Origin: Bacteroidaceae bacterium
GTDB lineage: Bacteria; Bacteroidota; Bacteroidia; Bacteroidales; Bacteroidaceae
Reading direction: 5' to 3'
NCBI GenBank assembly: GCA_017547205.1
Contig: JAFYQH010000028.1
Span: forward strand, 1 to 49,041
DNA length: 49,041 nt
Both the position numbers and the translations under genes were made by a program. Shown here piece after piece: positions 10,390-48,425 of this stretch. Position 1 is the first letter of the stretch; the number at the start of each line of letters is the position of its first letter. The notes under the pieces were generated by a model. It saw only the letters and a list, made by a program, of their open reading frames with translations, was not told the DNA's origin and searched no databases.

Positions 10390-10390
10390 T

Positions 10391-10934: not shown

Positions 10935-10953
10935 CACATCATCATTATCACTG

Positions 10954-10985: not shown

Positions 10986-11063
10986 CATTTATGCCTTTTT
11001 TATGTGTCAATGCCCGAATATGGTATTTTTATTCCTTGCCGCCGGTATTAAATGGTTGTTCCT

Positions 11064-11095
11064 TTTGTCTGTGATGGCTATAATTGTTATCTTCG
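11064..11095 (+). promoter_or_regulatory. Promoter of the small membrane protein gene
   Basis: TTTG (11064-11067), 20 bases, then TATCTTCG (11088-11095), a one-base variant of the -7 consensus. The predicted start near 11102 lies downstream of the first possible start codon at 11052. This supports the ATG at 11112 as the true start. Confidence 0.55.
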
Positions 11096-11111
11096 CGACA
11101 AAATAAAGGTT

Positions 11112-11561
11112 ATGGCTACAAAAGGCAGCAATGCAAACATGAGATTCCTCTTCGGCAGCGTATTCTTCTTTGCAGTAGTGATACTTTCCATAGTGTTGTT
11201 CACGTATTATGCCATGAGAGAATCATGGAAGAAATCTCCCGATACCGTCTATACTTATACGGTGACCTTCTCGCCCGATTTTGATGGGCTTGACTACTCG
11301 GTGTATCTTGATGATAGCTTGCTGTATGTAGGCACTCCTGTAGATGCCGATACGGTTATAAAGGTGAGACGTTACATTGCCGAAGAACCTGTTACCATTG
11401 CCGGGGTCGATACGGTCGTGCGTATACCGCGCTTTACATCCACTTCGTCGCTTTTCGTAGTTGACGGAAGAACTGACAAACCGCGCATTTTCAATGTCGG
11501 TGAGAATTGCAGTTTTTATTTGAGATTGGAAAACGGAAGAGTTGTGGCAGATATGAAATGA
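11112..11561 (+). CDS. Small membrane-anchored protein of unknown function
   Basis: I do not recognise this family. From the ATG at 11112 the protein has 149 residues. A short polar start is followed by one transmembrane helix (about residues 12-33: FLFGSVFFFAVVILSIVLFT). An extracytoplasmic part of about 110 residues, rich in beta-branched residues, includes YSVYLDDSLLYVGTP. The longer frame from 11052 would place about 20 odd residues before it and is disfavoured by the promoter position. It is divergent from rimP and convergent with the S41 protease gene, and shares a long terminator hairpin with the latter. Confidence 0.75.
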   Translation: MATKGSNANMRFLFGSVFFFAVVILSIVLFTYYAMRESWKKSPDTVYTYTVTFSPDFDGLDYSVYLDDSLLYVGTPVDADTVIKVRRYIAEEPVTIAGVDTVVRIPRFTSTSSLFVVDGRTDKPRIFNVGENCSFYLRLENGRVVADMK

Positions 11562-11608
11562 CAAGAAAAGGAATAGTCTTGGCTATCCCTTTTCTTGTCA
11601 TTTCATAT
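11551..11608. terminator. 26-bp inverted repeat between convergent genes, covering a stop codon
   Basis: Bases 11551-11576 pair with 11583-11608 with a single mismatch and a 6-nt loop. The left arm contains the last codons and the TGA (11559-11561) of the plus-strand gene. The right arm ends 6 bases before the stop of the minus-strand protease gene at 11614. Its position suits a shared terminator, although the U-tracts are interrupted. Confidence 0.75.
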
Positions 11609-11613
11609 TATTT

Positions 11614-13293: not shown

Positions 13294-13450
13294 GTTTGAA
13301 TAGTGATTCTGTTAAATTCTATATTTCCGCGAATATACACTTAATTCGTCGTTATAACCCTGCTGGTATGGAGTTTTTATCTCTTTTTTATGTTTTTTTA
13401 CCGAGATTGCCGGTTTTTTCTTTCATTATCCTAAAAAAAAGCCGAAAAAC

Positions 13451-13481
13451 TTGCAGGTATTAAAAAGATGTACTACTTTTG
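13451..13481 (+). promoter_or_regulatory. Promoter of the tRNA-Asn pair
   Basis: TTG (13451-13453), 20 bases, TACTTTTG (13474-13481), a full match to the Bacteroidetes -33/-7 pattern. It lies about 30 bases upstream of the first tRNA-Asn. The predicted transcription start is near 13488. Confidence 0.7.
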
Positions 13482-13512
13482 CAACGTCAAAAGACAAGGA
13501 TGACAAAAATAT

Positions 13513-13586
13513 TCTTCAGTAGCTCAGTCGGTTAGAGCACCTGACTGTTAATCAGGGGGTCGTAGGTTCAAGTCCTACCTGAAGAG
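13513..13586 (+). tRNA. tRNA-Asn (GTT), copy 1
   Basis: A 74-nt cloverleaf. The acceptor stem is TCTTCAG/CTGAAGA with discriminator G. The D-arm is GCTC/GAGC, the anticodon stem CCTGA/TCAGG with loop CTGTTAA (anticodon GTT), and the T-arm GTAGG-TTCAAGT-CCTAC. CCA is not encoded. A small hairpin (13589-13607, AGCGAG/CTCGCT) follows and may be a processing signal or a weak terminator before copy 2. Confidence 0.97.
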
Positions 13587-13631
13587 CAAGCGAGCGGAAG
13601 TCTCGCTATTTTAATGAACTTCCCAAAATAT

Positions 13632-13705
13632 TCTTCAGTAGCTCAGTCGGTTAGAGCACCTGACTGTTAATCAGGGGGTCGTAGGTTCAAGTCCTACCTG
13701 AAGAG
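13632..13705 (+). tRNA. tRNA-Asn (GTT), copy 2
   Basis: Identical over all 74 bases to the copy 119 bases upstream. The identity extends only 12 bases before the acceptor stem (AAAATATTC...), and the downstream flanks differ. There is no separate full promoter between the copies, so both are probably cut from one transcript. Confidence 0.97.
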
Positions 13706-13706
13706 C

Positions 13707-13738
13707 AAAGCAGAAAACAGCAGTTTTCTGCTTTTTTT
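13707..13738 (+). terminator. Intrinsic terminator of the tRNA-Asn transcript
   Basis: A 10-bp stem AGCAGAAAAC/GTTTTCTGCT (13709-13718 with 13723-13732, loop AGCA), followed by a run of seven T. Confidence 0.9.
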
Positions 13739-13856
13739 ATGCATTTTCTTTGGCTCTCCGGGCCGAGCAAAGCTATTCAAACATAAACGATATTAGAACG
13801 CTCTACATTTGTTATATCAGTTAGGAGTGTAACTATATATGGTTGTATGATTAAAC

Positions 13857-13896
13857 AAATTGATAGCGACAATATACAAATTGTCGCTATCAATTT
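13857..13896 (-). terminator. Terminator hairpin of the ppiD-like gene
   Basis: A perfect 17-bp stem (13857-13873 with 13880-13896, 6-nt loop), 22 bases after the minus-strand stop at 13918. On the minus strand it is followed by TTTGTTT-like sequence. Confidence 0.75.
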
Positions 13897-13917
13897 TATC
13901 GTTATGTAAGCAGTTTC

Positions 13918-16107
13918 TTACTGTGCCATCTGCATTGTGTGCAGTTTGTTCTCTACAGGGTAGATTTTCTCAAGTGCCATCTGGTATAACTGGGCTGCAA
14001 CATTGTCGTAGTTGAACATGCCTCCGTTGGATGTGATGTATTTGTTTTCTGTCTCTGCGTTGAAATCTCCGTTCTTCGGACTCTTTGCAGTAACCTTTAC
14101 TACATACACGCCGTTGTTACCCTTGATTGGTGCGCTTATTTCGTTGACATTCATGTTTGCAACGACTGCGCTGATTACGGGTTCATCTGAATTTACAACT
14201 GGTACGTGTGTGGCTTTCTTGTACTCAACCATGTCGATTGTGCAGGTCTTTACCTTGTTGTTGCCGCAGATGGCTGCAAAGTCTTTCCCGGCAAGTTCTT
14301 TGGTTATCATCTCGGCCTTCTTGTCTATTGCAAGGCGGCTTGCAATAGCCTGTGAAACCTTCTTTAAAGGAACATAGCCCTTGGGGTTGATGCCTGTTAC
14401 TACAGCTACAATGAAGTTGTCGTTGTTGCCACATTCTGTAATTGCAGAGAACTCACCCTCTGCTCTTTCGTCTGAAAGAATCCAGTTTATAAGGCTTGAT
14501 GTGTTGGCTATATTGCCAATATTTGCAGTAGAGGCGTTTACATCGTTCTGCTGGCGTACTATATAGCCGTTTTTGAATGCTTCGCTTCTGAACTGCTCTG
14601 CATTGTTGTATGTAGCGATGTATTCGCTGAGCTTGTTGTAGATGTTATCGTATGTTTCGTTGCTTGTTTCGATTTCCTTCTTGATGTATGCAATGTTATA
14701 AACATCTGCCTTGCCCTTCTTGGCGATGAGCTGGTATATCATCTTGGCGTTGGGTGAGAGTTCTGCTGTTGCATATTTGCCTACTGGGGCATTGTATATC
14801 TCCTCCTGGAGCTTTGCTGTGGTGATGATTCCCAATGAATAAAAGTTCTGTGAACGGAACCAGAGAGAATCTACATGGCCATAGTTCTTGGCGGTCTCCT
14901 TGAAGTTGGCCTTGCTGTTGAGTGCGTTCATGAGGCTGTCTGTTGTTGCAGCAAGAATGTCCTTGTCTTGACTCTCGATAAGGATGAGACGTATCATCAT
15001 TGAGTCTGCAACCTCTTCTTTGCGCAGATATTTGAATACGTTGAATGAGTTGTCCGATGCATTTGTGTATGGGCCTACAACTTCGTTCAGAGCTGCATTG
15101 TCTATGCGAATCTGTACATCCTCGCTAAGAGCGTCCTTGGTCCAAAGAAGGTCGTTGTAAGTGTAGTCGCAACCTGCCATGCGGAGCAATCTGTCGTACT
15201 CTGTATATCCGTTCTTCAAAGAGTCGGTATATTCCTGCATTTCGGCCTGTGCTTTTGCTCTGTCATTTACGCTCGGGGCTATGTTTACTGAGATGTACTC
15301 GATGTCGCGAGTGTCGAATGGTAACTCAAATACAAAATCTTTGTTGTCTTCGTAGAAGGCGTTTATCTCCTTCTCACTGGCTATTGCCAATGAGTCAGCG
15401 ATTTCGTTATATGGGTATGCTGCAACCTCTATGCTGAATGTGTTGTTGTTGAGCTCGAAGTTCTTGCTTGCAAGGGCAGGGTTGGGGAGTGCTGCTTTTG
15501 CAAGGAGTGTAGCTTGCTTTGAGTTGAGAAGCTCGAGCTTGATATTGTTCGCGAGGTATTCCCAGCATGCATGCATTTCTGCAGTGTAGGGGTCTATGCG
15601 GCCAATTTCAAGACCATTCTTGTAAGCCTCAGAAATCTCTTTCCATGAAACTGCATCAAATGCGATGCCTGATGACCTGAATTGTCTGTTGAAACTGTTC
15701 ATGAACATGCTGCTGTTGCTGTTCAGTGCCTCCTCAATCTCTTCGTCCGTGATGGCGATGCCCAGTTTCTCGGCCTGTACGGCTGCAATCTGTAGCTGTG
15801 TGTAGGTTTGCCATGCCTGCTCCTTTAATGCGTTGAGTTCCTCGTCGGTGAATGATGCAGCTCTCTGTGCCTCTGGAAGAGCTTCGTTCATCATTCTCAA
15901 AGTTTTTGTAGCATTGATGAAGTTGTTCTGGAATTCCTGGAATTCAATTGCAGAAACTTTTTCACCATCGATATAACCGGCAGAAATTTCTCTGCTGTTG
16001 GGCTCAAGTGCCCTCCAGGCATCACTTGCGATAAACGCAAACAATGCGAGACCCACAAAGATAACGAGCAGCGGGCCTTTGTTACGTAGCTTTTGTAGTG
16101 TAGCCAT
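13918..16107 (-). CDS. PpiD-like membrane-anchored peptidyl-prolyl isomerase/chaperone
   Basis: This 729-residue periplasmic folding factor is anchored by one N-terminal membrane helix (about residues 12-29, GPLLVIFVGLALFAFIAS). It then has a SurA-N-like region (EKVSAIEFQEFQNNFI and the helical block to about 190). The middle part contains parvulin-like sequence around residues 350-460, and the helical/beta C-terminal part ends in QMAQ. The parvulin signature is weak, so catalytic isomerase activity is uncertain; a chaperone role is more secure. A TAACTTTG box at 16150-16157 and the upstream terminator at 16197-16258 indicate that it is transcribed on its own. Confidence 0.85.
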   Translation of the reverse strand: MATLQKLRNKGPLLVIFVGLALFAFIASDAWRALEPNSREISAGYIDGEKVSAIEFQEFQNNFINATKTLRMMNEALPEAQRAASFTDEELNALKEQAWQTYTQLQIAAVQAEKLGIAITDEEIEEALNSNSSMFMNSFNRQFRSSGIAFDAVSWKEISEAYKNGLEIGRIDPYTAEMHACWEYLANNIKLELLNSKQATLLAKAALPNPALASKNFELNNNTFSIEVAAYPYNEIADSLAIASEKEINAFYEDNKDFVFELPFDTRDIEYISVNIAPSVNDRAKAQAEMQEYTDSLKNGYTEYDRLLRMAGCDYTYNDLLWTKDALSEDVQIRIDNAALNEVVGPYTNASDNSFNVFKYLRKEEVADSMMIRLILIESQDKDILAATTDSLMNALNSKANFKETAKNYGHVDSLWFRSQNFYSLGIITTAKLQEEIYNAPVGKYATAELSPNAKMIYQLIAKKGKADVYNIAYIKKEIETSNETYDNIYNKLSEYIATYNNAEQFRSEAFKNGYIVRQQNDVNASTANIGNIANTSSLINWILSDERAEGEFSAITECGNNDNFIVAVVTGINPKGYVPLKKVSQAIASRLAIDKKAEMITKELAGKDFAAICGNNKVKTCTIDMVEYKKATHVPVVNSDEPVISAVVANMNVNEISAPIKGNNGVYVVKVTAKSPKNGDFNAETENKYITSNGGMFNYDNVAAQLYQMALEKIYPVENKLHTMQMAQ

Positions 16108-16149
16108 AGTCTAATTTTATTTATTGTTGAATTTTTGCATTAAACTTCG

Positions 16150-16157
16150 CAAAGTTA
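16150..16157 (-). promoter_or_regulatory. Probable -7 box for the ppiD-like gene
   Basis: TAACTTTG on the minus strand, about 43 bases before the ATG at 16107. I see no -33 TTG at the expected distance. It lies downstream of the preceding operon's terminator. Confidence 0.45.
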
Positions 16158-16196
16158 GTAAATTGCTTTGGATTTATTGTTATAAACAATGGAAAA

Positions 16197-16258
16197 ACTT
16201 GTGTAAAAATGGAGAAAGTAGCTACATAAAGTGACGTTTTCTCTATTTTTACACAAGT
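16197..16258 (-). terminator. Terminator of the coaX-lptC operon
   Basis: A 21-bp stem (16197-16217 with 16238-16258, one G-T pair, 20-nt loop). On the minus strand the stem is followed by TTTTTCC. It lies 35 bases after the stop codon of the CNNM/CBS protein gene. Confidence 0.8.
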
Positions 16259-16292
16259 CGGATTTTAACTTGGCTGTATGCTGCCGCGCAGG

Positions 16293-17552
16293 TTATGTGA
16301 GTGTGAACTTTACAAGTTCTATTTTCGTGCTGCGAAGTTTAATGGTCCGTATTCTATAATGGTCTATGCTTATAGTCTCGTTCAGCTGAGGGAATCGCTG
16401 GTGGTGGGCAAGAATGAAGCCTCCCAATGTCTGATATTCGTCGGATTCGGGCAGACCTAAGTCGAACATTTCGTTTATCCTTTCAATCTCCAGACGTCCC
16501 GAAAGAATGTATTCGTTGTTGCCCAACGACTTGGCGACAAGGTTCTGGTTGTCGTGCTCGTCTTCAATCTCGCCTATGATTTCTTCTACAAGATCTTCAA
16601 GCGAGATTATGCCTGATGTTCCACCGAACTCGTCAATAACGACTGCCAATGACTTCTTCTGCTGCATGAGGGTACGCATCAGTTTCTGGGCGGAGAGGGT
16701 CTCGGGGACATAGGGCATCTTGCATATTTTCTGTTGCCACTTTTTTCCTAGCCTGAAAAGTTCCGATGAGTGTATGTATCCTATGATGTTGTCTATGTTG
16801 TCCTTGTAAACGACAATCTTGGAGTGACCAGATTCTATGAATACTGACTTCAATTCCTCGAGTGGGGTGTTTATTTCAACTGCCTCAATTTCCGTGCGTG
16901 GTACAAGGCAGTCCCTTACCTTTATGCTTGAGAAATCAAGGGCGTTCTGGAATATGAGAACGTCGTTGTTTATCTCTTGTTCTTCGTCGGCATTGTCTAT
17001 CGATGTCTGTATCAGGTTGTTCAGCTCTGTTACCGAAAAGGTGTTGTCACGCGCATTGTCCTTTATCCTTATGTTGAAAAGGCGAAGCAGAAGTGTTGAA
17101 CATACCGTTGTGAAACGTGCCAGGGGGTACAGTAATATGTATAGGACGTACATCGGCAGTGCGAAACGTTTCAGGGATCGGTTGGGGTTTATCCTGAAGA
17201 GTGCTTTCGGGACAAACTCGCCGGTGAATATTATCACTATCGTTGATATTATGGTCTCGAGCAACAGGCTTGCCGAGGGTGAGTCGTGGAGGCTGTGTAG
17301 AATCGTGCTGTTCAGTAGTCTGGCCATGAGCATACCATAAATCACAAGTACGATGTTGTTGCCTACCAGCAGGCTTGATATGAAATTATTGCTGTTGCTG
17401 TAGAATTGGTCTATAACGTAAGAATGCACAGAACGCTCTTGGCTATCTATGCCCAGAAGCAGTCTGTTCGATGATACGAAGGCAATCTCCATGCCCGAGA
17501 AGAGTGCCGAGAGGAGTATCACTGCAATTAGAAGTAAAATTGTTGTCGTCAT
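16293..17552 (-). CDS. CNNM/CBS-domain membrane protein (CorC/HlyC family, GldE-like)
   Basis: The 419-residue integral membrane protein has an N-terminal CNNM (DUF21) domain with several helices (about 1-185, starting TILLLIAVILLSALFSGMEIAF). A pair of CBS domains follows (about 205-325; VRDCLVPRTEIEAVE and VVIDEFGGTSGIISLEDLVEEI are the standard motifs), then a CorC/HlyC C-terminal domain (about 340-415). Relatives are proposed magnesium or cobalt exporters; the Bacteroidetes form is related to GldE, a gliding-motility accessory protein. No gldD is next to it, and 'hemolysin' would be a misleading name. It follows lptC with no gap and is the last gene of the coaX operon. Confidence 0.88.
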   Translation of the reverse strand: MTTTILLLIAVILLSALFSGMEIAFVSSNRLLLGIDSQERSVHSYVIDQFYSNSNNFISSLLVGNNIVLVIYGMLMARLLNSTILHSLHDSPSASLLLETIISTIVIIFTGEFVPKALFRINPNRSLKRFALPMYVLYILLYPLARFTTVCSTLLLRLFNIRIKDNARDNTFSVTELNNLIQTSIDNADEEQEINNDVLIFQNALDFSSIKVRDCLVPRTEIEAVEINTPLEELKSVFIESGHSKIVVYKDNIDNIIGYIHSSELFRLGKKWQQKICKMPYVPETLSAQKLMRTLMQQKKSLAVVIDEFGGTSGIISLEDLVEEIIGEIEDEHDNQNLVAKSLGNNEYILSGRLEIERINEMFDLGLPESDEYQTLGGFILAHHQRFPQLNETISIDHYRIRTIKLRSTKIELVKFTLT

Positions 17553-35282: not shown

Positions 35283-37118
35283 ATGAAAAATGCACGCATC
35301 TTATTTGGAATGGCATTGATGTTCACATTGTTTTCTTGTGGAAACGGTACAAAATGCTATTATGGTTCTGATTTCGGTATCGTACCCGGTACAGGTGAGG
35401 ATATGACCGAGGAGTTCGCAAAGGCATTAGAGACCATCAAGGCTGAATGTAATGGCGAAATTCCGGCCCAGTTGCTGATTGACAGCGGTGAATACGATTT
35501 CTACCCCGACAGTGCCCTTGTGCGCGAGTACTATGTGTCGAACCACGACCAGGATAATCCTAAACGTGTGGCTTTGGCTCTTGAGGGTATGAAAAATTTC
35601 ACACTGAAGAACCTTCCAACACATACCGGCAGCGAATATGCCAATTTGATGATGAATGGTCGTATGTTGCCGGTTGCTATGGTCGACTGCGAAAATTGTA
35701 CGCTGGAAGGAATAGCTGTCGATACCCGTGTGCCACAGATTACTCAGGTCGAGGTGCTTGAGAATGCCGGAGGCTATATAACATACCGTATTGCACCGTA
35801 TGTAAACTACCGTATCGACAACGGACGCCTTGTCGTTTATGGCAGCAATTGGGAGTTCGTTCCCAGTTGGGGTATTGCCTTTGAAGGTGATACAAAACAC
35901 ATCATATACACCACGAGCGACATCGGTGTCGGCACTTCGGGTGTCGAGGAGATTGAACCCTATGTCATCCGCGCGCCCTGGAACGATGCACGTCTTGTTC
36001 CAGGCAGTGTCATTGCAATGCGCTCGTATGCCCGTCCCACACCAGGCATTTTTGTTACTGAGTGCAAGAATACAAACCTGTTGAATTCAAGAGTTTTTTA
36101 CGCCGAGGGTATGGGCTTGCTTGCGCAGATGAGCGAGAACATTACACTCGACCGTTTCTGCGTGTCACTGCGCGATAACGAACGCTACTTTACCACTCAG
36201 GCCGATGCCACCCACTTTTCGGGTTGTAAGGGTAAGATTACCTCTGTCAATGGCTTGTATGAGGGAATGATGGACGATGCAATTAATGTGCACGGAACAT
36301 ACCTGCGCGTCACCCAAAGACTCGATGACAACACTTTGGTAGGCCGTTATATGCATGGTCAGGCCTACGGCTTCTATTGGGGTGGCGCGGGTGACAGCGT
36401 GCAGTTCGTGCGTTCCGATGTAATGGAAATTACCGAGGGTAACCGCGTTGTGGAGATTGCGCCTTATGACAAGGAACAGCTTGCAGGTTGCAAGGAGTTC
36501 AAGATAAAGTTCGAGAAACCTTTGCCGGCCGACATTGCCAACGGAAAGTACGGCATCGAGAACCTCGAATGGACTCCCGAGGTCTACTTTGCAGGCAATA
36601 CAATACGCAACAACCGTGCGCGCGGTGCATTGTTCAGCACTCCAAAGAGCACGCTTGTCGAGAATAACCTCTTTGACCACACATCGGGCACGGCAATCCT
36701 GCTCTGCGGTGATTGCAACGGCTGGTTCGAGACAGGTGCATGCCGCGATGTGGTTATCCGCAATAATCGCTTTGTCAATGCGCTCACAAGCATGTTCCAG
36801 TTTACGAACGGCATAATCTCAATCTATCCCGAAATTCCCGACCTGGCATCGCAGACAAAATATTTCCATGGTGGTAACGGCAAGGGAGTTGTTATTGAGA
36901 ATAATACCTTTGAGACGTTCGATGCCCCGATAGTCTATGCCAAGTCACTCGATGGCTTGCGTTTTGTGGGTAACAAAGTGTTGCAGAACAACGATTACAA
37001 ACCATTCCACTGGAATACCCACCGCTTCCTTTTTGAGAAAGTCGTGAATGTGACAATCGAGAACAACGAGTTCGAAGGCGGCTTCGACAAGGAAAAGGAT
37101 GTGAAGAACAATTATTGA
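35283..37118 (+). CDS. GH110 alpha-1,3-galactosidase lipoprotein
   Basis: This enzyme removes terminal alpha-1,3-linked galactose, as in blood-group B and alpha-Gal epitopes, by an inverting mechanism. The 611 residues start with a lipoprotein signal (MFTLFSCGNG, Cys19). The rest is a right-handed parallel beta-helix with repeated short turns (VIRNNRFVNA, VVIENNTFETF, VTIENNEFEGG). The key conserved motif is GMMDDAINVHGTYLRV, with Asp331-Asp332, which in GH110 carries the catalytic acids. The overall sequence resembles Bacteroides GlaB-type enzymes, but the split between branched-B and linear-alphaGal specificity cannot be read from it. The stop overlaps the next gene's ATG (TGATG). Confidence 0.9.
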   Translation: MKNARILFGMALMFTLFSCGNGTKCYYGSDFGIVPGTGEDMTEEFAKALETIKAECNGEIPAQLLIDSGEYDFYPDSALVREYYVSNHDQDNPKRVALALEGMKNFTLKNLPTHTGSEYANLMMNGRMLPVAMVDCENCTLEGIAVDTRVPQITQVEVLENAGGYITYRIAPYVNYRIDNGRLVVYGSNWEFVPSWGIAFEGDTKHIIYTTSDIGVGTSGVEEIEPYVIRAPWNDARLVPGSVIAMRSYARPTPGIFVTECKNTNLLNSRVFYAEGMGLLAQMSENITLDRFCVSLRDNERYFTTQADATHFSGCKGKITSVNGLYEGMMDDAINVHGTYLRVTQRLDDNTLVGRYMHGQAYGFYWGGAGDSVQFVRSDVMEITEGNRVVEIAPYDKEQLAGCKEFKIKFEKPLPADIANGKYGIENLEWTPEVYFAGNTIRNNRARGALFSTPKSTLVENNLFDHTSGTAILLCGDCNGWFETGACRDVVIRNNRFVNALTSMFQFTNGIISIYPEIPDLASQTKYFHGGNGKGVVIENNTFETFDAPIVYAKSLDGLRFVGNKVLQNNDYKPFHWNTHRFLFEKVVNVTIENNEFEGGFDKEKDVKNNY

Positions 37119-38785
37119 TGGAACTTCTTCATCGTTTTGCCCGGGATGTGCAGCCCGGAGAACTGCCTTCCCGTTTCAATAATCCTTTCTATTACTCACC
37201 GCACAGGCTTTGCATAATTGCAGCCGGTGCGGTGCGTGACATTTTGTCATGCAATGCCCATGTGGCTGCCGAAGTTGCAAAAGGCAAAATGTTTGGTGTG
37301 CTTGTTGTGCAGGATACACAGGGGCAGGTAGGTTTTCTTGCCGCCTTTTCGGGGTTGCTTTGTGGCACCAATATGCTCGACGGCTTTGTACCGCCTGTCT
37401 ACGACCTTCAGTCGCCGACAGGTTATTTCAAACAGGAAGAGGGTAATATATCCCAGTTGAACGATAGGATAAAGGCAATGGAGTGCGATACCGGGTATCT
37501 GCTTGCTGTTGGCGAGGTAGCGACATTGAAACGCGATATGGAGCAGGAACTTTCTGTTATGCGTGATGCCATGCGTGAGAGCAAGAGGCAGCGCGATGCC
37601 ATGCGCTCTTCGGGCACTCTTTCGCCTGAGCGAGAAGCGGCGTTGGTTCGCGAGAGCCAGTTTCAGAAAGCTGAGTTGAAACGTGCTGCTGCAAGGTGGC
37701 AACAGAAGATAACCGATAGCGAAGAACTTGTAGCTCCGTTGAAGGTTGGGATTGTGGCAATGAAGGAGGAGCGCAAAGCCCGTTCGGCAGCTCTGCAGGA
37801 GTGGCTTTTTACGCAGTTCAAAGTGCTCAATGCACGTGGCGAGGAGAAGAGTCTCCTTGATATATTTGCGGCAACAACAGGTAACTTGCCACCTGCAGGG
37901 TCGGGTGAGTGTGCAGCTCCAAAACTATTGCAATATGCCTATAGACATGGTTACAAGCCACTTGCTGTGGCCGAATTTTGGGTGGGCAGTTCTCCGGCCG
38001 GCGAAGTGCGTCGAGATGGTTGTTTCTATGGGGCATGCAAGAGCAAGTGCGAGCCCATACTCTCATATATGCTTCAAGGTCTCGATGTCGAAGAGAATGC
38101 CCTTGAGAAGGGTGGTGATATTGATGCTGTTGAGGTTGTCTATGAAGATGAACACCTTGTTGTCGTGAATAAACCGGCTGATGTGCTTTCTGTTCCGGGT
38201 GTGGTTGGTGGAATGTCGGTGCAGCAGTGGCTGCGCGAAAACCATGTACATAGCAATGAACTCTTTGTTGTCCATCGTCTCGATATGGCGACATCGGGGC
38301 TTCTTGTTGCAGCAAAGTCCATGGATGTCTACAAGTCAATGCAGGGAATGTTCGCTTCGCGCAAAGTAGAGAAGGTCTATCTTGCCCTGCTCGACGGCGT
38401 GCCTGTCATGGCTGAGGGAGTGGTGGATGTTCCGCTTGCGCCCGATTACGACAATCGCCCGCGTCAAAAGATGGATGCAGTCAATGGAAAGAGTGCTGTC
38501 ACTCGTTATAAAGTGTTGGATGTCATGAAAATGGACGGCGCTGTTTGTGCATTGGTTAAGTTTGAGCCTGTTACCGGGCGCACCCACCAGTTGCGTGTCC
38601 ATGCTGCTTGCAAAGAGGGATTGGATACTCCCATTGTCGGTGACGCTTTGTATGGCAAGCAGGGTAAGAGGCTTATGCTACACGCCTCGTCGCTTGTGTT
38701 CAATCACCCTGTAAGCGGCGAACTTCTTCATCTTGAGGCAAAAGTGGATTTTGTATCTCTCTTTGTTGACCGTAGCGCGGAGTAG
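37118..38785 (+). CDS. RluA family pseudouridine synthase with long N-terminal domain
   Basis: This RNA-modifying enzyme converts uridine to pseudouridine in rRNA or tRNA. Of its 555 residues only the last 200 are the RluA catalytic domain (starts VVYEDEHLVVVNKPADVLSVP), with catalytic Asp389 in VHRLDMATSG and the RTHQLRVH motif. The first 340 residues form a separate part with a charged coiled coil (about 125-215) and a cysteine cluster (CFYGACKSKC). This long form occurs in Bacteroidales. I chose the ATG at 37118, which overlaps the GH110 stop by one base; a TTG at 37115 is the alternative. The RNA target is unknown. Confidence 0.9.
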   Translation: MELLHRFARDVQPGELPSRFNNPFYYSPHRLCIIAAGAVRDILSCNAHVAAEVAKGKMFGVLVVQDTQGQVGFLAAFSGLLCGTNMLDGFVPPVYDLQSPTGYFKQEEGNISQLNDRIKAMECDTGYLLAVGEVATLKRDMEQELSVMRDAMRESKRQRDAMRSSGTLSPEREAALVRESQFQKAELKRAAARWQQKITDSEELVAPLKVGIVAMKEERKARSAALQEWLFTQFKVLNARGEEKSLLDIFAATTGNLPPAGSGECAAPKLLQYAYRHGYKPLAVAEFWVGSSPAGEVRRDGCFYGACKSKCEPILSYMLQGLDVEENALEKGGDIDAVEVVYEDEHLVVVNKPADVLSVPGVVGGMSVQQWLRENHVHSNELFVVHRLDMATSGLLVAAKSMDVYKSMQGMFASRKVEKVYLALLDGVPVMAEGVVDVPLAPDYDNRPRQKMDAVNGKSAVTRYKVLDVMKMDGAVCALVKFEPVTGRTHQLRVHAACKEGLDTPIVGDALYGKQGKRLMLHASSLVFNHPVSGELLHLEAKVDFVSLFVDRSAE

Positions 38786-39154: not shown

Positions 39155-42100
39155 ATGAAAAAACTTTTAACCATTATGTTGCTGCTGGTGGTGTCGGTTG
39201 CTACCGGTCTGGCACAGATTGACACAAGCAAGGAGTACCGCATCAAGGATGTCGGTACCGGTAATTATCTGAATGCGGCAAACCACACTGCGCACGCTAC
39301 CGGTCCCATCGGTGGTGTGACAGTAGCTGCCTATGCCGAGAGTGACGAGCAGATTTTTACATTCGAGGCTGCGGGTAGCGGTTATTACCTGAAGACAAGG
39401 AGTGGCTATTACATCTACTGCCAGCAGTGGAATGTCGATGCTCTTACAACAAAGAGTGTGCTCACATTCACCGATGCTGGCAATGGCAATTACTACATTA
39501 TGAACGGCAGCAACTACTTCAAGGTTGAGAATGTGAGCGGTACATACTACCCGTTCTGCGATGCTCCATCAAGTGCAAAGGCTACATGGACTTTGGAGCC
39601 TGTAGTTACAGGTGACATCAGCATTGCAGTGCTTGGTACTACCGATGCTGCAGCAGGTGTTGTCTACAATGGCACCGAGTACAAGAGCGGAAGCACACTG
39701 AACACTAACGCCTCTATCAAAAAAGAGGATTTCACTGCAATGCCGGTTGACGGAATGCACGCTGTAATCAATATTGACGGCCTGAATATTTATGTGAGCT
39801 ACTTCAGCAACAGCACAAAGTTCTACACTATAAAGGGACATAAGGTAGATCTCTACTACGTGAGCCTGAACCCCGATTATTGTGATGGTGTAAATCTTAA
39901 ACTCACAAACAAAAATGCTCCACAGGATAACCGTGGTCTTTGGATGTTCGAGGCGCAAAGTGACGGTGGATACAAGGTTTACAACTATTCAACCGGTCTC
40001 ACAAAGGTTCTTGGCATTACAGGTAGCGAAGCCAATGCACGTGCATCGATGGTCGACCGCAACAGCACTTCACATTCAACGGTTTTCGATGGTACAATCA
40101 ATTTCGACGGCACAGCATCATACATAAAGATTAAGGGTAGTAACAACAATTACTGGAACAAACGAGGCAATTATCTGGCTCTGTGGGCCGATAACGGTGC
40201 TGTTGGTGACAACGGAAGTACATTCTTCATGGAGGAGGCCGACTACTCTCTGTTCCCCGATGAGTATAAATTCGAATACACTCCAAAGAATGCCAACACG
40301 CTGTGGTACAAATCGTCGGCAAAGTCGGGCGGTTCAAGCAACGCATGGCAGGAGTATGCCTTACCATTGGGCAACGGCGAGCTTGGATGCATGGTGTTCG
40401 GCGAGGTGCAGAGCGAGGAGATACAATTCAACGAGAAGACTCTGTGGAGTGGCCCTGCAAACACAATCGGTGCAGATGGTGGTAACCGCACATTCGTGAA
40501 TTTCGGTTCACTGTTCATCACCGACAACAATGCACAGGCGGCAACCGACTATGTGCGTTACCTTGACCTCGAAGAGGGTATTGCCGGTGTGGAATTCAAA
40601 AAGAGCAACGGCACACGACAGGTGCGAAGATACTTCAGCTCGGCTCCCGACTCTGTAATTGTAATCAACTACAAGAATATCGGCAGCGAGAAACTGAACC
40701 TCACATTCAGCATGACCCCATGTAGCGACATCAGTGCAAGCAGTGTTACATACAGTAACGGCGCAGCATCGTTCACCGGAGCAATGGAGGCTGTGAAGTA
40801 TGCGGCACGCGTACACGTGGCTGCCGACAATGACGCTACCATAAGCACTGCTTCAAACGGAATAACAGTGAGCAATGCAACCGAGGTGACATTCTTCCTG
40901 AAGGGCGGTACCAACTTCAACGGCGATATGACTGTCCTTGATAACTATTTCACGAATGAGACACAGGACGATGTCAACAACCGCATAAAGGCCGACATTG
41001 AAAAGGCTGCAGCCAAGGAGTATGCGGCACTTGAGGCGGCTCACATTGCCGATTTCAGCGCAATTACAAAACGTATGACACTCGACTTTGGTCTTGAAGT
41101 GCCAACCGTCGACACCAAGACTCTTATTGATAACTACTATCCCAACAACCAGGACGGCAACAGCGTCGATAACGACCATCTGTTTCTTGAACAGCTCTAT
41201 TTCCACTATGGCCGTTACCTGGCTATCAGCTCAAACCGCAAGCCAATTGCGGCGCCAAACAACCTGCAGGGTATCTGGAACAACCTTGGCCGCCAGGCTT
41301 CACATGGCGTATGGAACTCGGATATCCACACCAACATCAACATACAGATGAACTACTGGCCAACAGAGATGACCAACCTTGGCGACCTTCACATGCCATT
41401 CCTGAACTTCATTATCCGTGGTGCGCAGAGCGAGGGTTGGAAAAAGGTTGCTCGTGAGTATAATAATGGAGATACCAAGGGCTGGAGCGTGATGACAGAG
41501 TCATCGCTCTACAATAGTATGAGTACTTGGGGCAGCAACTATCTGGTTGCCAATGTATGGTACACCAGCCACCTGTGGATGCACTACCGCTATACACAGG
41601 ACAAGGAATTCCTGAAGAAGGCATTTCCTGTAATGTGGAGCTGCGCCGAGTTCTGGTTCCACCGCTTGAAGAATGTGAATGGCGTGTATCTCGCACCAAA
41701 CGAGTATTCGCCCGAACACGGCCCCAGTGGCGAGGACGGTACAGCGCACGCACAGCAGATGATCAGTTATCTGTTCGAGAACCTGATGGAGGCGATAGAG
41801 ATTCTTGATGCGAGCGAGCATGGTCTTACACAGGCGCAGATAGAGAAACTCAATGACTACTACCTGCACACCGACAAGGGTCTTGCAACCGAGTCTTGTG
41901 CAAGAGCAAACAACGGCGTGACGGTTGGTACAACCTTGCTTCGCGAGTGGAAATACTCGGCACATACAAGTGGCGAGACAGGACACAGACATATGTCGCA
42001 CTTGATGGCTCTCTATCCAATGGAGCAGATTACACCCGAAAGCCAGTACTTTACCCCGGCAGTGAACTCTTTGAGACACCGTGGCGATGCGGCTACAGGC

Positions 42101-43216
42101 TGGTCAATGGGTTGGAAGGTCAATCTCTGGGCACGCGCACAGGATGGCGACCACGCCCACATAATCATAAAGAACGCGCTGCAGCACGCTGGCAGCAACG
42201 GTGGTGTATATTACAACCTGTTCGATGCGCACCCACCATTCCAGATTGACGGAAACTTTGGTGTATGCGCGGGTATGGCCGAGATGTTGTTGCAGAGCGC
42301 ACACGGCTACATAAACATCCTGCCTGCATTGCCTACTGTTTGGGAAAAGAACGGAGAAATCGCCGGCATGAAGGCTATCGGTAATTTTACTGTCGATTTC
42401 AATTGGGAAAACGGCAAGTGTCAGAAGGCTACTATCACAAGCAATGCCGGTGCCGAACTGAAGGTGCGTTGCAACCGTGGTGCTATGGAAATTGGCAAGG
42501 CGCTTGTAACCGTGAACGGCAAGAAGGCAGCTGTAAGCGTTGAAAACAGCATTGCAACCATTCCTTGTGAAAAGGGCGATGTTGTTGTCATTGACTTTAC
42601 CAAAACAGCCGAATCGTATGTCGAGAGCCACGAACTCGATGTTACTGAGGTCGGATATGCAACTCTCTACCTTGGTTTCGACGCCACTATCCCTGAACTT
42701 AAGGGTGAGGACTGCGGTGTCTATACCATTACAAGTGTAGGCGACAGCTATGCGCATATGGAGGCTGTAACCGGCACGTTGCCGGCAAACACTGGCGTGG
42801 TGGTGAAGGCCGATGAGGGCACATATACATTTGTGCAGTCGTCAACTTCTCCTGCAAACATTGACAAAGGACTGCTCGTGGGTACACTTGTCTGTGAACA
42901 GATAACCAAGGAGGAAGGCAAGGAGTATTATATCCTCTCGAATGAATATGAGCCGGTAGGCTTCTACATAGCCGGAAACGGAACGGATAACAAGTATTTC
43001 TGGAACAACGCCAACAAGGCATATCTTGTAATTTCCAAGGAGGTTGCACAGGGCAGCACCGGTTTCCGCTTTGATATTGACGGCACTACAGGAGTTGAAG
43101 AGGTGAAAACGGAAAACGTAAATGTAAAAGCTATTTACGATTTGCAAGGTAGAAAAGTCAACACTCCAAATAAGGGGTTGTACATCATTGATGGCAAGAA
43201 GGTATTTATAAAATAA
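39155..43216 (+). CDS. GH95 alpha-L-fucosidase with accessory domains
   Basis: The 1353-residue secreted enzyme probably removes alpha-1,2-linked fucose from glycans. After a signal peptide (about residue 20, ...ATGLAQ) come a ricin-like beta-trefoil region (about 25-150), a second beta domain (150-375), the GH95 core (about 380-1160) and a tail domain. Key residues by comparison with the Bifidobacterium enzyme AfcA are Asn727 and Asn729 in [12 protein letters not shown], Glu854 in YSPEHGP and Asp1032 in [11 protein letters not shown]. His725 matches the His that distinguishes fucosidases from the alpha-L-galactosidases (Thr) of the family. The last 30 residues are the Prevotella tail [10 protein letters not shown]...[13 protein letters not shown]. 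Confidence 0.9.
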
Positions 43217-43222
43217 AGTAAC

Positions 43223-43360
43223 AATATAGCAGTTGACCCAATGTGGTTTGTCTCTAACCTTGTGTGAGAGATCTCTTTATTGCAGTTTTAGAGATTTCTC
43301 ACACAAGGTTAGAAATGACACAAACACCGGATTATCGCAATTTGGGTCAACTGCTATATT
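43223..43360. repeat. Nested inverted repeat between the GH95 and GH123-GH33 genes
   Basis: Outer arms: 19 perfect base pairs (43223-43241 with 43342-43360, AATATAGCAGTTGACCCAA). Inner arms: 23 pairs with one G-T (43254-43276 with 43290-43312). The loop is 13 bases, and the unpaired segments between the stems are 12 and 29 bases. The whole element is 138 bases long. It begins 7 bases after the GH95 stop and ends before the -7 box of the next gene. It could be a strong terminator-like structure or a miniature inverted-repeat element; no clear target duplication is seen. Confidence 0.8.
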
Positions 43361-43375
43361 ATTGCCAAAAATATA

Positions 43376-43424: not shown

Positions 43425-46400
43425 ATGAAAAAGATTGCTTTATTGTTCATGTTGCTTGTCGCAATGGTGTTTACAGCCGTTGCTCAAGCCGACTACTACG
43501 TTGTGCATGGAGCCGACGAGAACGTGACTCACGGTACGCACTATCCCAAGGCCGTGGGTGTGGCCAATGTGCGCGGTGACCAGCAGGTCCTTGACAACAT
43601 TGCGTCAGCACCGCGTTGTGCAGCCTATTTCGACAAGACAGCAACACTCTTCGAGGTAAAGAGCGGCGAGACAATTACACCACTCATTACCATCAACGGT
43701 GCATGGATGCACGGCTATGTCTATGTCGACTGGAACGGTAACAAACAGTTCGATGTGAACCTTACAGGTGAAGGTCCCTACATAAAGGGTGAGGGTAACG
43801 AACTTATGTGCTGGTCTCTTTACAGTCATAATGGTAACGGTGATAGTGGCTGGAATAGTGCCGGTCTCTACCAGGGCAATGGCGATGTTCTTGCTCCGGG
43901 CTCGTTCCGCGTGCCCGAGGGGCTTGAGGTTGGTGCAACCTACCGCATGCGCTATGCAATACAGTGGAACAGCATAGACCCCACAGGCGCGTATGCCAAT
44001 TTTATAAGCGACGGCGGTTCTATTATCGATGTTACACTCAAGATATCGGGCATTGCATCCGAGGATGAGCAGCAATCCTATCCTATTGACGAGTATGCCG
44101 AGCCGCGTGTGGGCACAACTCCCGATGAGGCATCATGGAATGCCATAGCTGACGGCCTCAATGCCTCATGGGCTTCGCGCGACGTGCACTACAAACTGCA
44201 CGAGGTTCCGCAACTGGAGCTGAAGAACGAGGCTGCACTCTACGCATGGAAGGGCGAGCGTGCCAACATACAGGCCGTGCTTTACAGCAAGAGCGACCAA
44301 GGCATGCTCTCGGTACGCATGACCGAGTGGACAAAGGGTGGTGCGGCTACCGGTATCAACGGAGGTGACGCACGTTTCGTCAACTATGTAATTACTGACG
44401 ACTATGTATCCTGCGGCAATCACCCCATGACCTTGCCACAGTGGCTTGTTGCCGATGTAATCGACCAGGACAAGCCTCACGCCGTTCCGGCAATGGAGAC
44501 ACGCCCTGTGTGGTGTACCATTGAAGTGCCCCGCGACATTGAGGCAGGTGAGTATGCCACAGCTCTTGAGGTTGTCGATGAGAACGGCAATGTAGTGAAG
44601 AGCCTTACGCTCAATATCACCGTAGACAGCCACTCGTTGCCTACCGTGGCGAACCAGAAATTCCATCTCGACTTTTGGCAGCAGCCTTACGCTATCAGTC
44701 GCTACTATGGTGTAGAGCGCTGGAGCGATGAGCACTACGATGCGCTGCGCCCCTATCTCAAGGCTCTTGGCCGTGCTGGTCAGCGCACCGTCACCACAAT
44801 CCTCTTCTATGAGCCCTGGGGCGAGCAGACACACGACCTTTTCGACCCTATGGTGCAGACAACGAAGAAGAGCGACGGAACTTGGGATTATGACTATACC
44901 GTGTTCGACAAATATGTCGAGTTGTGTGCCGAGTACGGCATCGACAAGCAAATCAACTGCTTCAGCATGGTTCCCTGGGATATGAGCTTCCGCTACTGGG
45001 ACGAGGCTTCATCAACATACAAGTCTCTCAAGACAACTACAGGTACTGCCGAGTACAGTGAGTTGTGGACAAGTTTCCTCACATCCTTCAAGGCACACCT
45101 GGTTGAGAAAGGCTGGTTTGAAAAGACAAATATCGCAATGGACGAGCGTGGCGAGGCCGACCTGCAGAATGCCTATAACATTGCCAATGGTCTGGGCTTC
45201 AACTGCGCCCTTGCCGGCAACTACCACTCATCGCTCTGCGGAACATACCGCGACCTCTGCGCACAACTTGGCCAGGAGCACCTCTTTACGGCGCAGCAGC
45301 TTGCAAGCCGCAAGGCAAAGGGCTGGGTGACAACCTTCTACACAAGCTGCGCTAACAGCGAACCTAATATCTATACCAATTCCTATCCTGCCGAGGCTGC
45401 CTATCTGCCAATCTATGCGGCGAAGATGAACCTCGACGGCTATCTCCACTGGGCATGGTGTAACTGGGACGAGCATCCTTTGACCGACAGCCGTTTCCGC
45501 AAGTTCGGTTCGGGCGACACATACTGCTACTATCCCGGTAACCGCTCAAGCATCCGTTTCGAGCGTCTTATCGAGGGTATACACCAGTTCGAGAAGATAC
45601 AGATACTCAAGGAAGAGTACAAGAACAACAGCGCAAAGCTTGCACAACTCAACACATTGCTTAACCGCTTCACCGGTGGCATTGCAGGTGCCGAGTGCGC
45701 GGCTTTGGTTGACGACCTTGAGGCGTTCCTCAACGGCAAGGAGGTTGAAATTCCCGTTGCAAAGGATGTGACGACAGGTTACTATCACATCGTGGGTAAG
45801 GCAACTTCGCGTGCCGAGCACCTTTATAACGATGCCACACTGAGCGGCAACAGCCTGCGTTTCACCTTGCAATCCAATAGCATGGTAAACACCAACAACG
45901 GTATATGGCACATAACAGTCAAAGATAACGGCAAGCTCGGCGTTAAGAACGGTGACGGTAACCCCGTCGTTACCGGTGCCAACTGGGGTGGCTCAATAGA
46001 CGGCACATTTACGGAACTTACCATTGGCAGCACTGTCGATGTAGGCGAATACCGTTATTACTATTTTACCGAGGCGCTCAACTGCACCAACGGTGGTGCA
46101 AATTTCAAGGTCGGCGGTGTCGACTTCATCACTACATGGGCCGGTCATCCCGATGCCGACGACAACCAGTGGCGTTTCGAGCCGGTTGACGTAGAGGGAA
46201 TGAATATCTACGATGTTGTTGTAGAGGGCAATGCCGACGTATATGTGGCATATAATAATGGAACAACAATCGAGAATGCCTTCAACGGTGGCTTCTTCAT
46301 TACAGCAAGTGCCATCACCGCGCAGCAGCTCACTGCTGCAATGGTAGGGAATGTGCTTGAAGGAGCCGATGTCACTATCGAGGGCAATACCATCAAGGTT

Positions 46401-48425
46401 ACGAATATAAAGGTTGCAATCCAGCCGGTAAAGCAGGACCTCTACAATACCAGCAAGGGTGACGGTGTTATTCCCCCGTACCGCATACCGGGTATTACCA
46501 CGGCAAGCAACGGCCGCCTCATTACAGCCGCTGCGCGCCTTGTCTGCGGAACCGACCCCGGTTACGGTCAGGTCGATGTCGTTTGCCGCTACAGCGACAA
46601 CAATGGCGAGACATGGAGCGACATGATTGATGTGGCAGTTGGTACGGGCCGCACATCGGCGACTGTCAACTATTTCGATACAGCATTCGGTGACCCTGCA
46701 ATTGTTGCCGACCGCACCAGCAACGAGGTTCTTATCATTGCGGTGGCCGGCTGTACAGTGTACGGCAACGGCAACACCACACGCCAGAACCCCAATATGA
46801 TTGCAACAATTCATAGCAAGGACAATGGCGAGTCATGGGAAGCTCCCGTCAATGCTACCGAGCAGATATATTCACTTTTCGATGCCGGCAATGTCGTGCA
46901 GTCGGCTTTCGTCGGCGGTGGCAAGGTATTCCAAAGCCGCATTGTAAAGAAAGACAAATATTACCGCCTTTATGCAGCCATGTGTGCGCGCCCCAACGGT
47001 AATCGCGTCATCTACTCCGATGACTTCGGCCGCACATGGTATGCCCTTGGTGGTGCATCGGCTCTCCCTGCCCCCGGTGGCGACGAGCCCAAGTGCGAGG
47101 AGATGCCCGACGGCCGCGTAATCCTTTCAAGCCGTGTAGGCGGTGGCCGCATATACAATATCTACACCTACAGCAACACCCTTGAGGGTACAGGAGAGTG
47201 GAGCACGTCGGTAAAGAGTACTTTTGAAGGCTCAGGTCTCACCCCCGGTGGCAACTCTACTAACGGCGAGATTCTTGTAGTACCCGTGCAGCGCAAGAGC
47301 GACGGCAAGGAGATGTATCTTGCCCTGCAGTCACTCCCCACAGGTGGCGGCCGCACGAATGTCGGTATCTTCTATAAGGAACTGACCGATGTTACAGACA
47401 TCAATAGCGTAGAGAACTTTGCCAAGGACTGGAACGGCTTCTTCCAAGTGAGCAACACTTCGTCGGCATACAGCTCAATGGACCTGCAAGCCGATGACCG
47501 TATCGGTTTCATCTACGAGGAGACATTGACAGGTTTCGGTCGTCGTGACAATCCTGTTTCTACAAGTTTCCCCACAGGTGCAGGGCAACATAATTTCGAC
47601 GGCTTCGATAATATATATGTTGCATATAGCCTCGAATACATAACGAACGGTGCCTACAGCGTCAAGCGCAATGTCGACCGCCGTGCATTTGTCCAGGACT
47701 ACTTCACGGCTCTTGTTGCCGATGCTGCAGAGGATGTCAAGGCTAATGTAGCCGACGCGCTCGAGGCGTTGAGCGAGGAACCTACTGTTGCCGAAATAGA
47801 CAATATCTATTCTATCATAGCAGGTGGCGAACCTGCCGACAAATGGGACGGCAAGGTACTTACCTTCACCAATGTGCAGCAGAATGGTATAGAGCGTGTA
47901 CTTTATATAAATGATGAAAATAAACTTGATATAACCACTTCAACTGCCGACGAGGTGGGTGCAGTGGCGCAGTTCCACTGCAAGAAGGAGGCAAGCGGCA
48001 AGTACAGTTTTTTTAACAAGGAGAAGAACCTGTACATGATTTGGCGTGCCGGTGCTAACTATGGTTACAACAACAATGCCGGAACACTTGCTGCATACAA
48101 TGCCACATACTGCGACTGGAGTATCAATGCCGGCAGTGTTGCCGACAGGTATTATCTTGTGAGCAAACGTAACGACGGCACAACCGATGGCTCTTTGATT
48201 GTTATGGCATCGGGCGTTTTTGATGCATATTCGGCTACCGAAGGTTATACAGCCAATTATAGCAACCTTTTCCGCATTGATGTTGTGGGTATCGCAACAG
48301 GCATTGAGAAGGTAGAAATCAGCAATGAGAAAGAAGAAATCTTCGACCTCGCAGGCCGCAAGATTGATACTATCACTAAGGCCGGTATTTATATCGTAGG
48401 TGGCAAAAAGGTACTTGTAAAGTAA
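43425..48425 (+). CDS. Bifunctional GH123 beta-N-acetylgalactosaminidase / GH33 sialidase
   Basis: This 1666-residue secreted fusion has a signal peptide (KKIALLFMLLVAMVFTAVAQA). A GEVED-like beta domain (about 30-205) contains GYVYVDWNGNKQFD. The GH123 module with its DUF4091 part (about 230-770) has the catalytic Asp573-Glu574 pair in MDERGEAD, and LHWAWCNWDEHP is also typical. A beta-trefoil-like region (780-925), then the sialidase N-terminal domain (925-1010), leads to the GH33 module (1010-1415) with YRIPG (Arg1020), Asp-boxes SDNNGETW (1057), SKDNGESW (1131) and SDDFGRTW (1198), and Tyr1349 with IYEE. A ricin-like domain and the Prevotella tail (DLAGRKI...GIYIVGGKKVLVK) end the protein. 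Both active sites appear intact. Confidence 0.88.
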   Translation: MKKIALLFMLLVAMVFTAVAQADYYVVHGADENVTHGTHYPKAVGVANVRGDQQVLDNIASAPRCAAYFDKTATLFEVKSGETITPLITINGAWMHGYVYVDWNGNKQFDVNLTGEGPYIKGEGNELMCWSLYSHNGNGDSGWNSAGLYQGNGDVLAPGSFRVPEGLEVGATYRMRYAIQWNSIDPTGAYANFISDGGSIIDVTLKISGIASEDEQQSYPIDEYAEPRVGTTPDEASWNAIADGLNASWASRDVHYKLHEVPQLELKNEAALYAWKGERANIQAVLYSKSDQGMLSVRMTEWTKGGAATGINGGDARFVNYVITDDYVSCGNHPMTLPQWLVADVIDQDKPHAVPAMETRPVWCTIEVPRDIEAGEYATALEVVDENGNVVKSLTLNITVDSHSLPTVANQKFHLDFWQQPYAISRYYGVERWSDEHYDALRPYLKALGRAGQRTVTTILFYEPWGEQTHDLFDPMVQTTKKSDGTWDYDYTVFDKYVELCAEYGIDKQINCFSMVPWDMSFRYWDEASSTYKSLKTTTGTAEYSELWTSFLTSFKAHLVEKGWFEKTNIAMDERGEADLQNAYNIANGLGFNCALAGNYHSSLCGTYRDLCAQLGQEHLFTAQQLASRKAKGWVTTFYTSCANSEPNIYTNSYPAEAAYLPIYAAKMNLDGYLHWAWCNWDEHPLTDSRFRKFGSGDTYCYYPGNRSSIRFERLIEGIHQFEKIQILKEEYKNNSAKLAQLNTLLNRFTGGIAGAECAALVDDLEAFLNGKEVEIPVAKDVTTGYYHIVGKATSRAEHLYNDATLSGNSLRFTLQSNSMVNTNNGIWHITVKDNGKLGVKNGDGNPVVTGANWGGSIDGTFTELTIGSTVDVGEYRYYYFTEALNCTNGGANFKVGGVDFITTWAGHPDADDNQWRFEPVDVEGMNIYDVVVEGNADVYVAYNNGTTIENAFNGGFFITASAITAQQLTAAMVGNVLEGADVTIEGNTIKVTNIKVAIQPVKQDLYNTSKGDGVIPPYRIPGITTASNGRLITAAARLVCGTDPGYGQVDVVCRYSDNNGETWSDMIDVAVGTGRTSATVNYFDTAFGDPAIVADRTSNEVLIIAVAGCTVYGNGNTTRQNPNMIATIHSKDNGESWEAPVNATEQIYSLFDAGNVVQSAFVGGGKVFQSRIVKKDKYYRLYAAMCARPNGNRVIYSDDFGRTWYALGGASALPAPGGDEPKCEEMPDGRVILSSRVGGGRIYNIYTYSNTLEGTGEWSTSVKSTFEGSGLTPGGNSTNGEILVVPVQRKSDGKEMYLALQSLPTGGGRTNVGIFYKELTDVTDINSVENFAKDWNGFFQVSNTSSAYSSMDLQADDRIGFIYEETLTGFGRRDNPVSTSFPTGAGQHNFDGFDNIYVAYSLEYITNGAYSVKRNVDRRAFVQDYFTALVADAAEDVKANVADALEALSEEPTVAEIDNIYSIIAGGEPADKWDGKVLTFTNVQQNGIERVLYINDENKLDITTSTADEVGAVAQFHCKKEASGKYSFFNKEKNLYMIWRAGANYGYNNNAGTLAAYNATYCDWSINAGSVADRYYLVSKRNDGTTDGSLIVMASGVFDAYSATEGYTANYSNLFRIDVVGIATGIEKVEISNEKEEIFDLAGRKIDTITKAGIYIVGGKKVLVK

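Follow-up and report, generated by a model that had tools for sequence, protein, structure and literature searches.

A GH123–GH33-type sialidase fusion protein of gut Bacteroidales, a probable two-step decapping enzyme for Sda/GM2-type glycan caps

Introduction

SiaBb3 of Bifidobacterium bifidum is a protein in which a GH123 module precedes a GH33 module and which, according to the available sections of its description (December 2025), takes Neu5Ac and then GalNAc off both GM2 and mucin Sda (PMC12856340). A sialidase-dead (GH33) mutant is inactive on these two substrates, a mixture of the two single mutants produces lactosylceramide from GM2, and 6'-sialyllactose is preferred over 3'-sialyllactose (PMC12856340). 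The same pairing appears in an annotation listing from 2021, in the accessible part of which Allo_01388 of Allobaculum mucolyticum is entered as 'GH123,GH33', with 1765 aa and a signal peptide (PMC8409761). Another B. bifidum protein, SiaBb1, also combines a sialidase with a further decapping function in a single polypeptide; in the portion of the report at hand this function is an esterase acting on 9-O-acetylated Neu5Ac (PMC7232152), a combination that parallels a GDSL-sialidase ORF described below and not the protein that is the subject of this work.

Both modules have relatives among solved chains. The solved chain of BvGH123 from Bacteroides (Phocaeicola) vulgatus (PDB 5l7r/5l7u/5l7v) is without a sialidase module, and the 531-residue solved chain of the Treponema denticola sialidase TDE_0471 (PDB 10qf/10qi) aligns only with the sialidase part of the protein described here. 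In the excerpts available, asialo-GM2 and Gb4-type glycans are substrates of Uhgb_GH123, which is identical to a Bacteroides plebeius protein (PMC7531118), and five beta-HexNAcases of Akkermansia are active on GA2, only one of which, a GH20 enzyme, takes GalNAc from sialylated Sda (PMC11790493). A GH123-GH33 fusion is not named in the accessible parts of four other reports (PMC11155115, PMC11323728, PMC12834350, PMC12997984); in those same parts BT_2751 is listed under GH123 as 'Neuraminidase like protein' (PMC12834350) and mention is made of a GH20 protein that contains a peptidase domain (PMC12997984).

We have analysed a 49,041-nucleotide stretch of a Bacteroidaceae genome (contig JAFYQH010000028.1 of assembly GCA_017547205.1; hereafter the window) that encodes such a fusion. 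An initial annotation of this DNA stated that no characterised enzyme with this pairing was known, which SiaBb3 has made outdated. The GH123-GH33 pairing is already in print, and the window protein is a new Bacteroidota relative, not a new kind of enzyme. What is added here is a member from the Bacteroidota, its frequency in one genus, an export route that is likely to differ, and a surrounding family of sialidase fusions.

Results

The fusion gene is a single ORF of 1666 codons for amino acids on the + strand (43425..48425), as is every feature of it given below, and its domains were assigned by profile searches and by matches to PDB sequences. As initially annotated, the polypeptide is unsplit, with no frameshift in the ORF, and it carries both modules in one chain, GH123 first. 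Residues 1-21 (43425..43487) resemble a signal peptide without a lipobox cysteine; secretion is suggested by this N-terminus only, as read from the sequence. An accessory GEVED domain (Pfam PF20009; residues 98-191; 43716..43997) scores 24.3 bits in the full-length protein, marginally below the cut-off of 24.4, and 27.5 bits when the region is scanned by itself. The GH123 beta-N-acetylgalactosaminidase module (44169..45608) consists of an N-domain (residues 249-384) and a catalytic domain (418-728), and is joined by a linker of beta-rich domains (785-1001; 45777..46427) to the GH33-type sialidase module (1005-1375; 46437..47549). In the predicted model the linker contains strands, with pLDDT values, taken by blocks, mostly above 80; part of the linker is weakly ricin-B-like (RicinB_lectin_2, E 0.045, below the cut-off), and a search of PDB sequences with the linker by itself gave a best E of only 0.38. 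Beyond the sialidase, the predicted model of residues 1376-1666 contains a helical segment (1403-1465; 47631..47819) and a predicted beta-trefoil domain (1478-1620; 47856..48284), accessory and possibly sugar-binding, whose Foldseek matches are to beta-trefoils (best E 1.4e-05). The chain ends in a tail (1625-1666; 48297..48422) that, from a tail profile and the presence of T9SS genes, is a likely type IX sorting signal. A structure model of the two modules together has a mean pLDDT of 73.5 and a pTM of 0.54, values too low to fix the orientation of the modules or to say whether their sites face one glycan.

A search for related proteins gave 51 ORFs of at least 1100 aa with both modules, 34 of which were kept after those sharing exact 200-residue pieces had been dropped; with the window protein they make up a set of 35 fused ORFs, in which L018, L024, L047 and L026 are truncated or end prematurely and both of two near-copies, L039 and L050, are retained. 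Since 34 further distinct ORFs hold both modules, their joint presence is not due to chance. Two alignments were drawn from the set: A2, with the window protein and 29 of the 34 (omitting L050, L018, L024, L047 and L026), and A3, with the window protein and 25 of 30 (omitting L045, L044, L084, L046 and L050).

The GH123 module is recognised by Pfam GH123_cat (PF13320) at residues 418-728 with an E value of 4.4e-95 (319.2 bits, cut-off 23.1) and its N-domain by Pfam with E 1e-32; the nearest solved chain in a PDB sequence search is BvGH123 (5l7r, E 1.6e-129). The catalytic Asp-Glu pair that had been proposed, D573-E574 (45141..45146), aligns with the DE of BvGH123 in 5l7r, and both residues are found in all 35 fused ORFs. 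We infer from these features that the module would release beta-GalNAc.

The sialidase module is more divergent. NCBIfam NeuramTDE0471 matches residues 981-1372 with E 7e-78 and 262.6 bits, not reaching its curated cut-off of 900, and Pfam BNR_2 (PF13088) gives 20.8 and 25.0 bits against a gathering score of 31.4; because the module falls below both cut-offs, and neither model defines GH33, we term it GH33-type and divergent. The Asp-box model BNR (Pfam PF02012) passes its threshold when the domain is scanned alone (32.8 against 27, in three stretches), the T. denticola sialidase TDE_0471 is a match among PDB sequences (10qf, E 2e-64), and the fold is that of a sialidase beta-propeller. The arginine triad, the Asp acid/base and the Tyr-Glu nucleophile pair are all present. 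They comprise R1020 of the RIPG motif, the first triad arginine (46482..46484; Arg in 35/35 fused ORFs); the acid/base D1044 (46554..46556; Asp in 35/35), which aligns with the Asp replaced by Ala in 10qi, the D165A mutant; E1221, the nucleophile partner (47085..47087; Glu in 35/35); R1237, the second triad arginine (47133..47135; Arg in 35/35); R1310, the third (47352..47354; Arg in 34/35, with one gap); and the nucleophile Y1349 (47469..47471; Tyr in 33/35, with two gaps). We assign the roles of R1020, E1221, R1237, R1310 and Y1349 by analogy with the family, and those of the last four also by motif spacing. RIPG and Y1349 are thus where the initial annotation had placed them. Its count of three Asp-boxes holds for two, which match the strict pattern (SKDNGESW at 1131 and SDDFGRTW at 1198); the third (SDNNGETW at 1057) has Asn at the Asp position, occupied by Asp in 25 and by Asn in 10 of the 35 fused ORFs. 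Release of Neu5Ac is the activity that such a module would be predicted to have.

Both modules are strongly constrained. D573, E574, R1020, D1044, E1221 and R1237 are invariant in the 35 distinct fused ORFs, window included, and mean identity to the window protein is 0.81 for GH123 and 0.87 for GH33, with lower values for the N-domain (0.72), the linker (0.66), the trefoil (0.62) and the tail (0.49). The median dN/dS of GH123 (0.083) and of GH33 (0.064) are the lowest of all domains; these values are rough, since dS approaches saturation and, per domain, 318-457 pairs with dS above 2 or not computable were dropped.

The fusion is frequent within one genus. Among the matches listed for the 101 genomes searched, one ORF spans both modules in at least 24 of 44 same-genus genomes, our own included; two of the ORFs counted are cut by contig ends, and several further genomes show pieces only. 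The relatives retrieved with the protein as query lie in 40 loci, not every one a fusion, of which 37 are titled Bacteroidaceae, Prevotellaceae or Bacteroidales and 31 bear titles that name the cecum, colon or rectum of buffalo, sheep, goat, yak, deer or cattle. Reading of the sequences confirmed the fusion in G201 and G435, which are genomes from a different family of the same order. In the order sample GH123 was found in 60 of 393 genomes, and the full-profile matches in frames longer than 1400 aa are those of our genome, G201 and G435; a further genome, G082, has a weak GH123 match in a 1442-aa frame. In a phylum-level sample drawn around L070, a record titled Clostridium sp., GH123 was found in 20 of 395 genomes and, among the matches listed, no GH123 frame exceeds 1302 aa. 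This second sample is at least partly Bacteroidota, because it includes places identical to those of same-family genomes (G680:C4:104957 is G045:C4:104957), and either the title of L070 may be in error or the sample may have had another centre; the two samples overlap, and none of the genomes searched is known to belong to the Actinomycetota or to the Bacillota, the phylum in which we place Allobaculum mucolyticum.

In a GH123 tree of 45 rows, five stand-alone GH123s are separated from a single group (100/100) that comprises 34 fused rows plus six further ones. Three of the six (L055, L056 and L088) have GH123, a linker and a proper C-terminal tail without a sialidase in frame; of the other three, L054 is truncated by the end of its contig, L053 is divided between two frames and L058 is broken. 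L088, which lies on the same contig as L030, shows no sialidase elsewhere in its 14 kb, and L055 and L056 have less than 0.8 kb of sequence beyond the gene. The topology would fit a single fusion event with later loss of the sialidase in some members. In the sialidase tree (53 rows) the fused rows require five changes, and L062, L065 and L067, which are without GH123, fall among them; since sialidases without GH123 lie among the fused rows, the sialidase module has in addition moved or been lost. Midpoint rooting was used for both trees, in which the stand-alone rows have long branches. The GH123-only relatives offer a natural comparison of GH123 with and without a sialidase partner. As a separate observation, locus L066 holds two very large ORFs (2-6865, 2288 aa; 7335-16697, 3121 aa). 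Both contain a sialidase module that is 60-67% like that of the window protein, and F5/8C, InlB-repeat and GEVED domains are present as well in the second.

Two components of the type IX secretion machinery, SprA and GldM, were searched for and both are encoded in the genome: a 2469-aa frame matches SprA_N with 651 bits (cut-off 27), GldM scores 531 bits (cut-off 180), and neither matches in any of 14 control genomes. A profile built from nine tails, four of them from this genome, finds 34 places in it at E ≤ 1 and 30 at E < 0.001, four of the places being rows of the profile itself. None of the T9SS sorting-domain models in the Pfam and NCBIfam scans matched the fusion protein, so that type IX export is put forward here as no more than probable. 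A search for nanA gave two matches in the genome, both below the cut-off; the search is unspecific, because all 14 control genomes also matched. One of the two adjoins a GlcNAc 2-epimerase gene that scores above its own cut-off.

The window's sialidase is one of six sialidase matches in its genome. Locus L079 (G000:C53) has a GH20-sialidase ORF at 1667-7180 (1838 aa, running off the contig), and L080 (G000:C8) a GDSL-sialidase ORF at 1924-7185 (1753 aa), near which lies an ORF with GDSL and SASA esterase domains (10783-12864); together, the sialidase and esterase ORFs of L079 and L080 look like a set for the removal of O-acetylated sialic acid. Two more sialidase ORFs have 1123 aa, without a named N-terminal domain, and 675 aa. 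In L082 (G000:C12, 3341-9094) a 1917-aa ORF carries a C10 (streptopain-type) peptidase at residues 44-239 and a sialidase at about 1041-1393, and ends in a tail 74% identical to that of the window protein. This protease-sialidase chain is possibly a mucinase; a limited literature search found no published account of a C10 peptidase-sialidase fusion. Sialidase fusions also stand next to each other: a GH20-sialidase ORF (L044) and a GDSL-sialidase ORF (L045) are each found 0.6-0.9 kb upstream of a GH123-sialidase ORF, on the same strand.

Discussion

The window protein resembles SiaBb3 in having GH123 at the N-terminal and a GH33-like sialidase at the C-terminal side, a signal peptide and an extracellular destination, both of them predicted in our case. 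The two are of similar make in finer points, as far as these are given in the available sections (PMC12856340): D617/E618 of SiaBb3 corresponds to D573/E574, a match by role and not by alignment, and 128 residues separate Glu from Tyr in both proteins (E1430/Y1558 and E1221/Y1349, again paired by role and not by alignment). The divergent sialidase of SiaBb3 has only three Asp-boxes, compared with two canonical boxes and an Asn-bearing third in the window protein. The lengths are similar (1753 aa for SiaBb3, 1666 aa here). The modules of SiaBb3, at 281-757 and 1229-1607, are separated by a longer linker, and SiaBb3 is a sortase-anchored protein of the Actinomycetota, whereas the window protein is from the Bacteroidota and has a likely type IX tail. 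The GH123 module of SiaBb3 is reported to be 36% identical to CpNga123 (PMC12856340), while BvGH123 is the nearest of the solved chains to that of the window, and because of this the specificities of the two enzymes may differ.

We consider that the window protein is probably an extracellular, two-step mucin decapping enzyme of gut Bacteroidales, acting on Sda/GM2-type caps with sialic acid removed first. The sialidase module would first take Neu5Ac off the GalNAc-beta1-4(Neu5Ac-alpha2-3)Gal cap, present as Sda on mucin O-glycans or in GM2; the GH123 module, which would require that the neighbouring sialic acid be gone, would then take off the beta-GalNAc and expose the galactose. The beta-trefoil and GEVED domains probably tether the enzyme to glycan or to the cell surface, and the probable route outward, directed by the C-terminal tail, is type IX secretion. 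Sialic acid first is the likely order because of the results obtained with SiaBb3, Uhgb_GH123 and the Akkermansia beta-HexNAcases. That one enzyme strips both Neu5Ac and GalNAc from such a cap had been suggested in the initial annotation; it is the best reading and has been shown experimentally for SiaBb3, and for the window protein action on Sda is what we infer. Two observations weigh against this reading, namely the preference of SiaBb3 for 6'-sialyllactose and the nanA matches, which are below the cut-off. The Sda-decapping design, until now described in B. bifidum and listed for Allobaculum, would thereby extend to the Bacteroidota and, if the activity holds, Sda-type caps would be a recurrent food source across phyla.

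Possibly, though this is on balance rather unlikely, the protein is instead a pair of general decapping enzymes that act on different mucin glycans, the fusion serving co-secretion or co-localisation without a shared Sda substrate. In the same genome sialidase modules are found in ORFs with GH20, a GDSL esterase or a C10 peptidase, which resembles a module added to many partners, and because of these other partners a general sialidase fits as well as an Sda-specific one. The relatives L055, L056 and L088, with GH123 and no sialidase in frame, imply that the two steps need not share one chain, and Uhgb_GH123 also cuts a Gb4-type glycan in the excerpt available (PMC7531118). Against this, removal of an Sda cap calls for exactly a GH123 and a GH33, and SiaBb3, in which these two modules are arranged in the order seen here, acts on Sda with the second step dependent on the first, according to the sections available (PMC12856340). 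It is highly improbable that one module is catalytically dead and acts as a lectin for the other: catalytically dead relatives do occur among glycosidase folds, but nothing in the fusion protein points that way and dN/dS indicates strong constraint on both modules. We reject this possibility, since the catalytic residues are present and, where alignable, invariant in the 35 fused ORFs. A false joining of two genes in this metagenome-assembled genome has next to no probability and is ruled out by the 34 further distinct fused ORFs from other assemblies, and by the single ORF across both modules in at least 24 of 44 same-genus genomes, our own included, even though the assembly is incomplete (83 contigs) and the halves sit in two overlapping frames in one relative (L027/L053).

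Returning to the two-step decapping enzyme, its sialidase may belong to a wider scheme. We raise, as a speculative and somewhat doubtful extension, the idea that the sialidase is a shared unlocking module in the genus, each chain (with GH123, GH20, a GDSL esterase or a C10 peptidase) being directed at one sialic-acid-protected target. Were this so, removal of sialic acid and the step that it blocks would be combined on one molecule, and the C10 peptidase-sialidase would be a self-sufficient mucinase that desialylates mucin and then cuts its backbone.

The fusion gene has two glycosidase genes upstream, both on the + strand. A GH95 gene (alpha-fucosidase family, by profile; 39155..43216) encodes a protein whose tail, by alignment, is similar to that of the fusion, and a gene with GLAA-B beta-barrel domains (Pfam PF23763/PF23764; 35283..37118) is termed GH110-like, which is our interpretation of the domain name. 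From their families we presume that both encode decapping enzymes attacking mucin caps. In 9 of the 43 loci listed, the fusion or what can be seen of it is adjoined by the GH110-like gene together with a pseudouridine synthase gene; the 43 include copies of one contig and many loci with too little flank to reveal the pair. At E 1e-30 none of the 43 gave a match to the GH95 gene. In the window the GH110-like and pseudouridine synthase genes (35283-38785) overlap by 4 bp. A palindromic repeat of about 144 bp (43220-43363), whose arms are 22 nt long and enclose a 24-nt inverted repeat, lies 61 bp before the fusion gene and may be MITE-like or regulatory. An 80% copy (G000:C12:33028-33171) precedes the C10 peptidase-sialidase ORF by about 170 bp, and the genome contains ten further partial matches, eight of them to one 24-nt arm. 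Elsewhere in the window, two tRNA-Asn genes with an identical anticodon are arranged in tandem (13513-13587 and 13632-13706).
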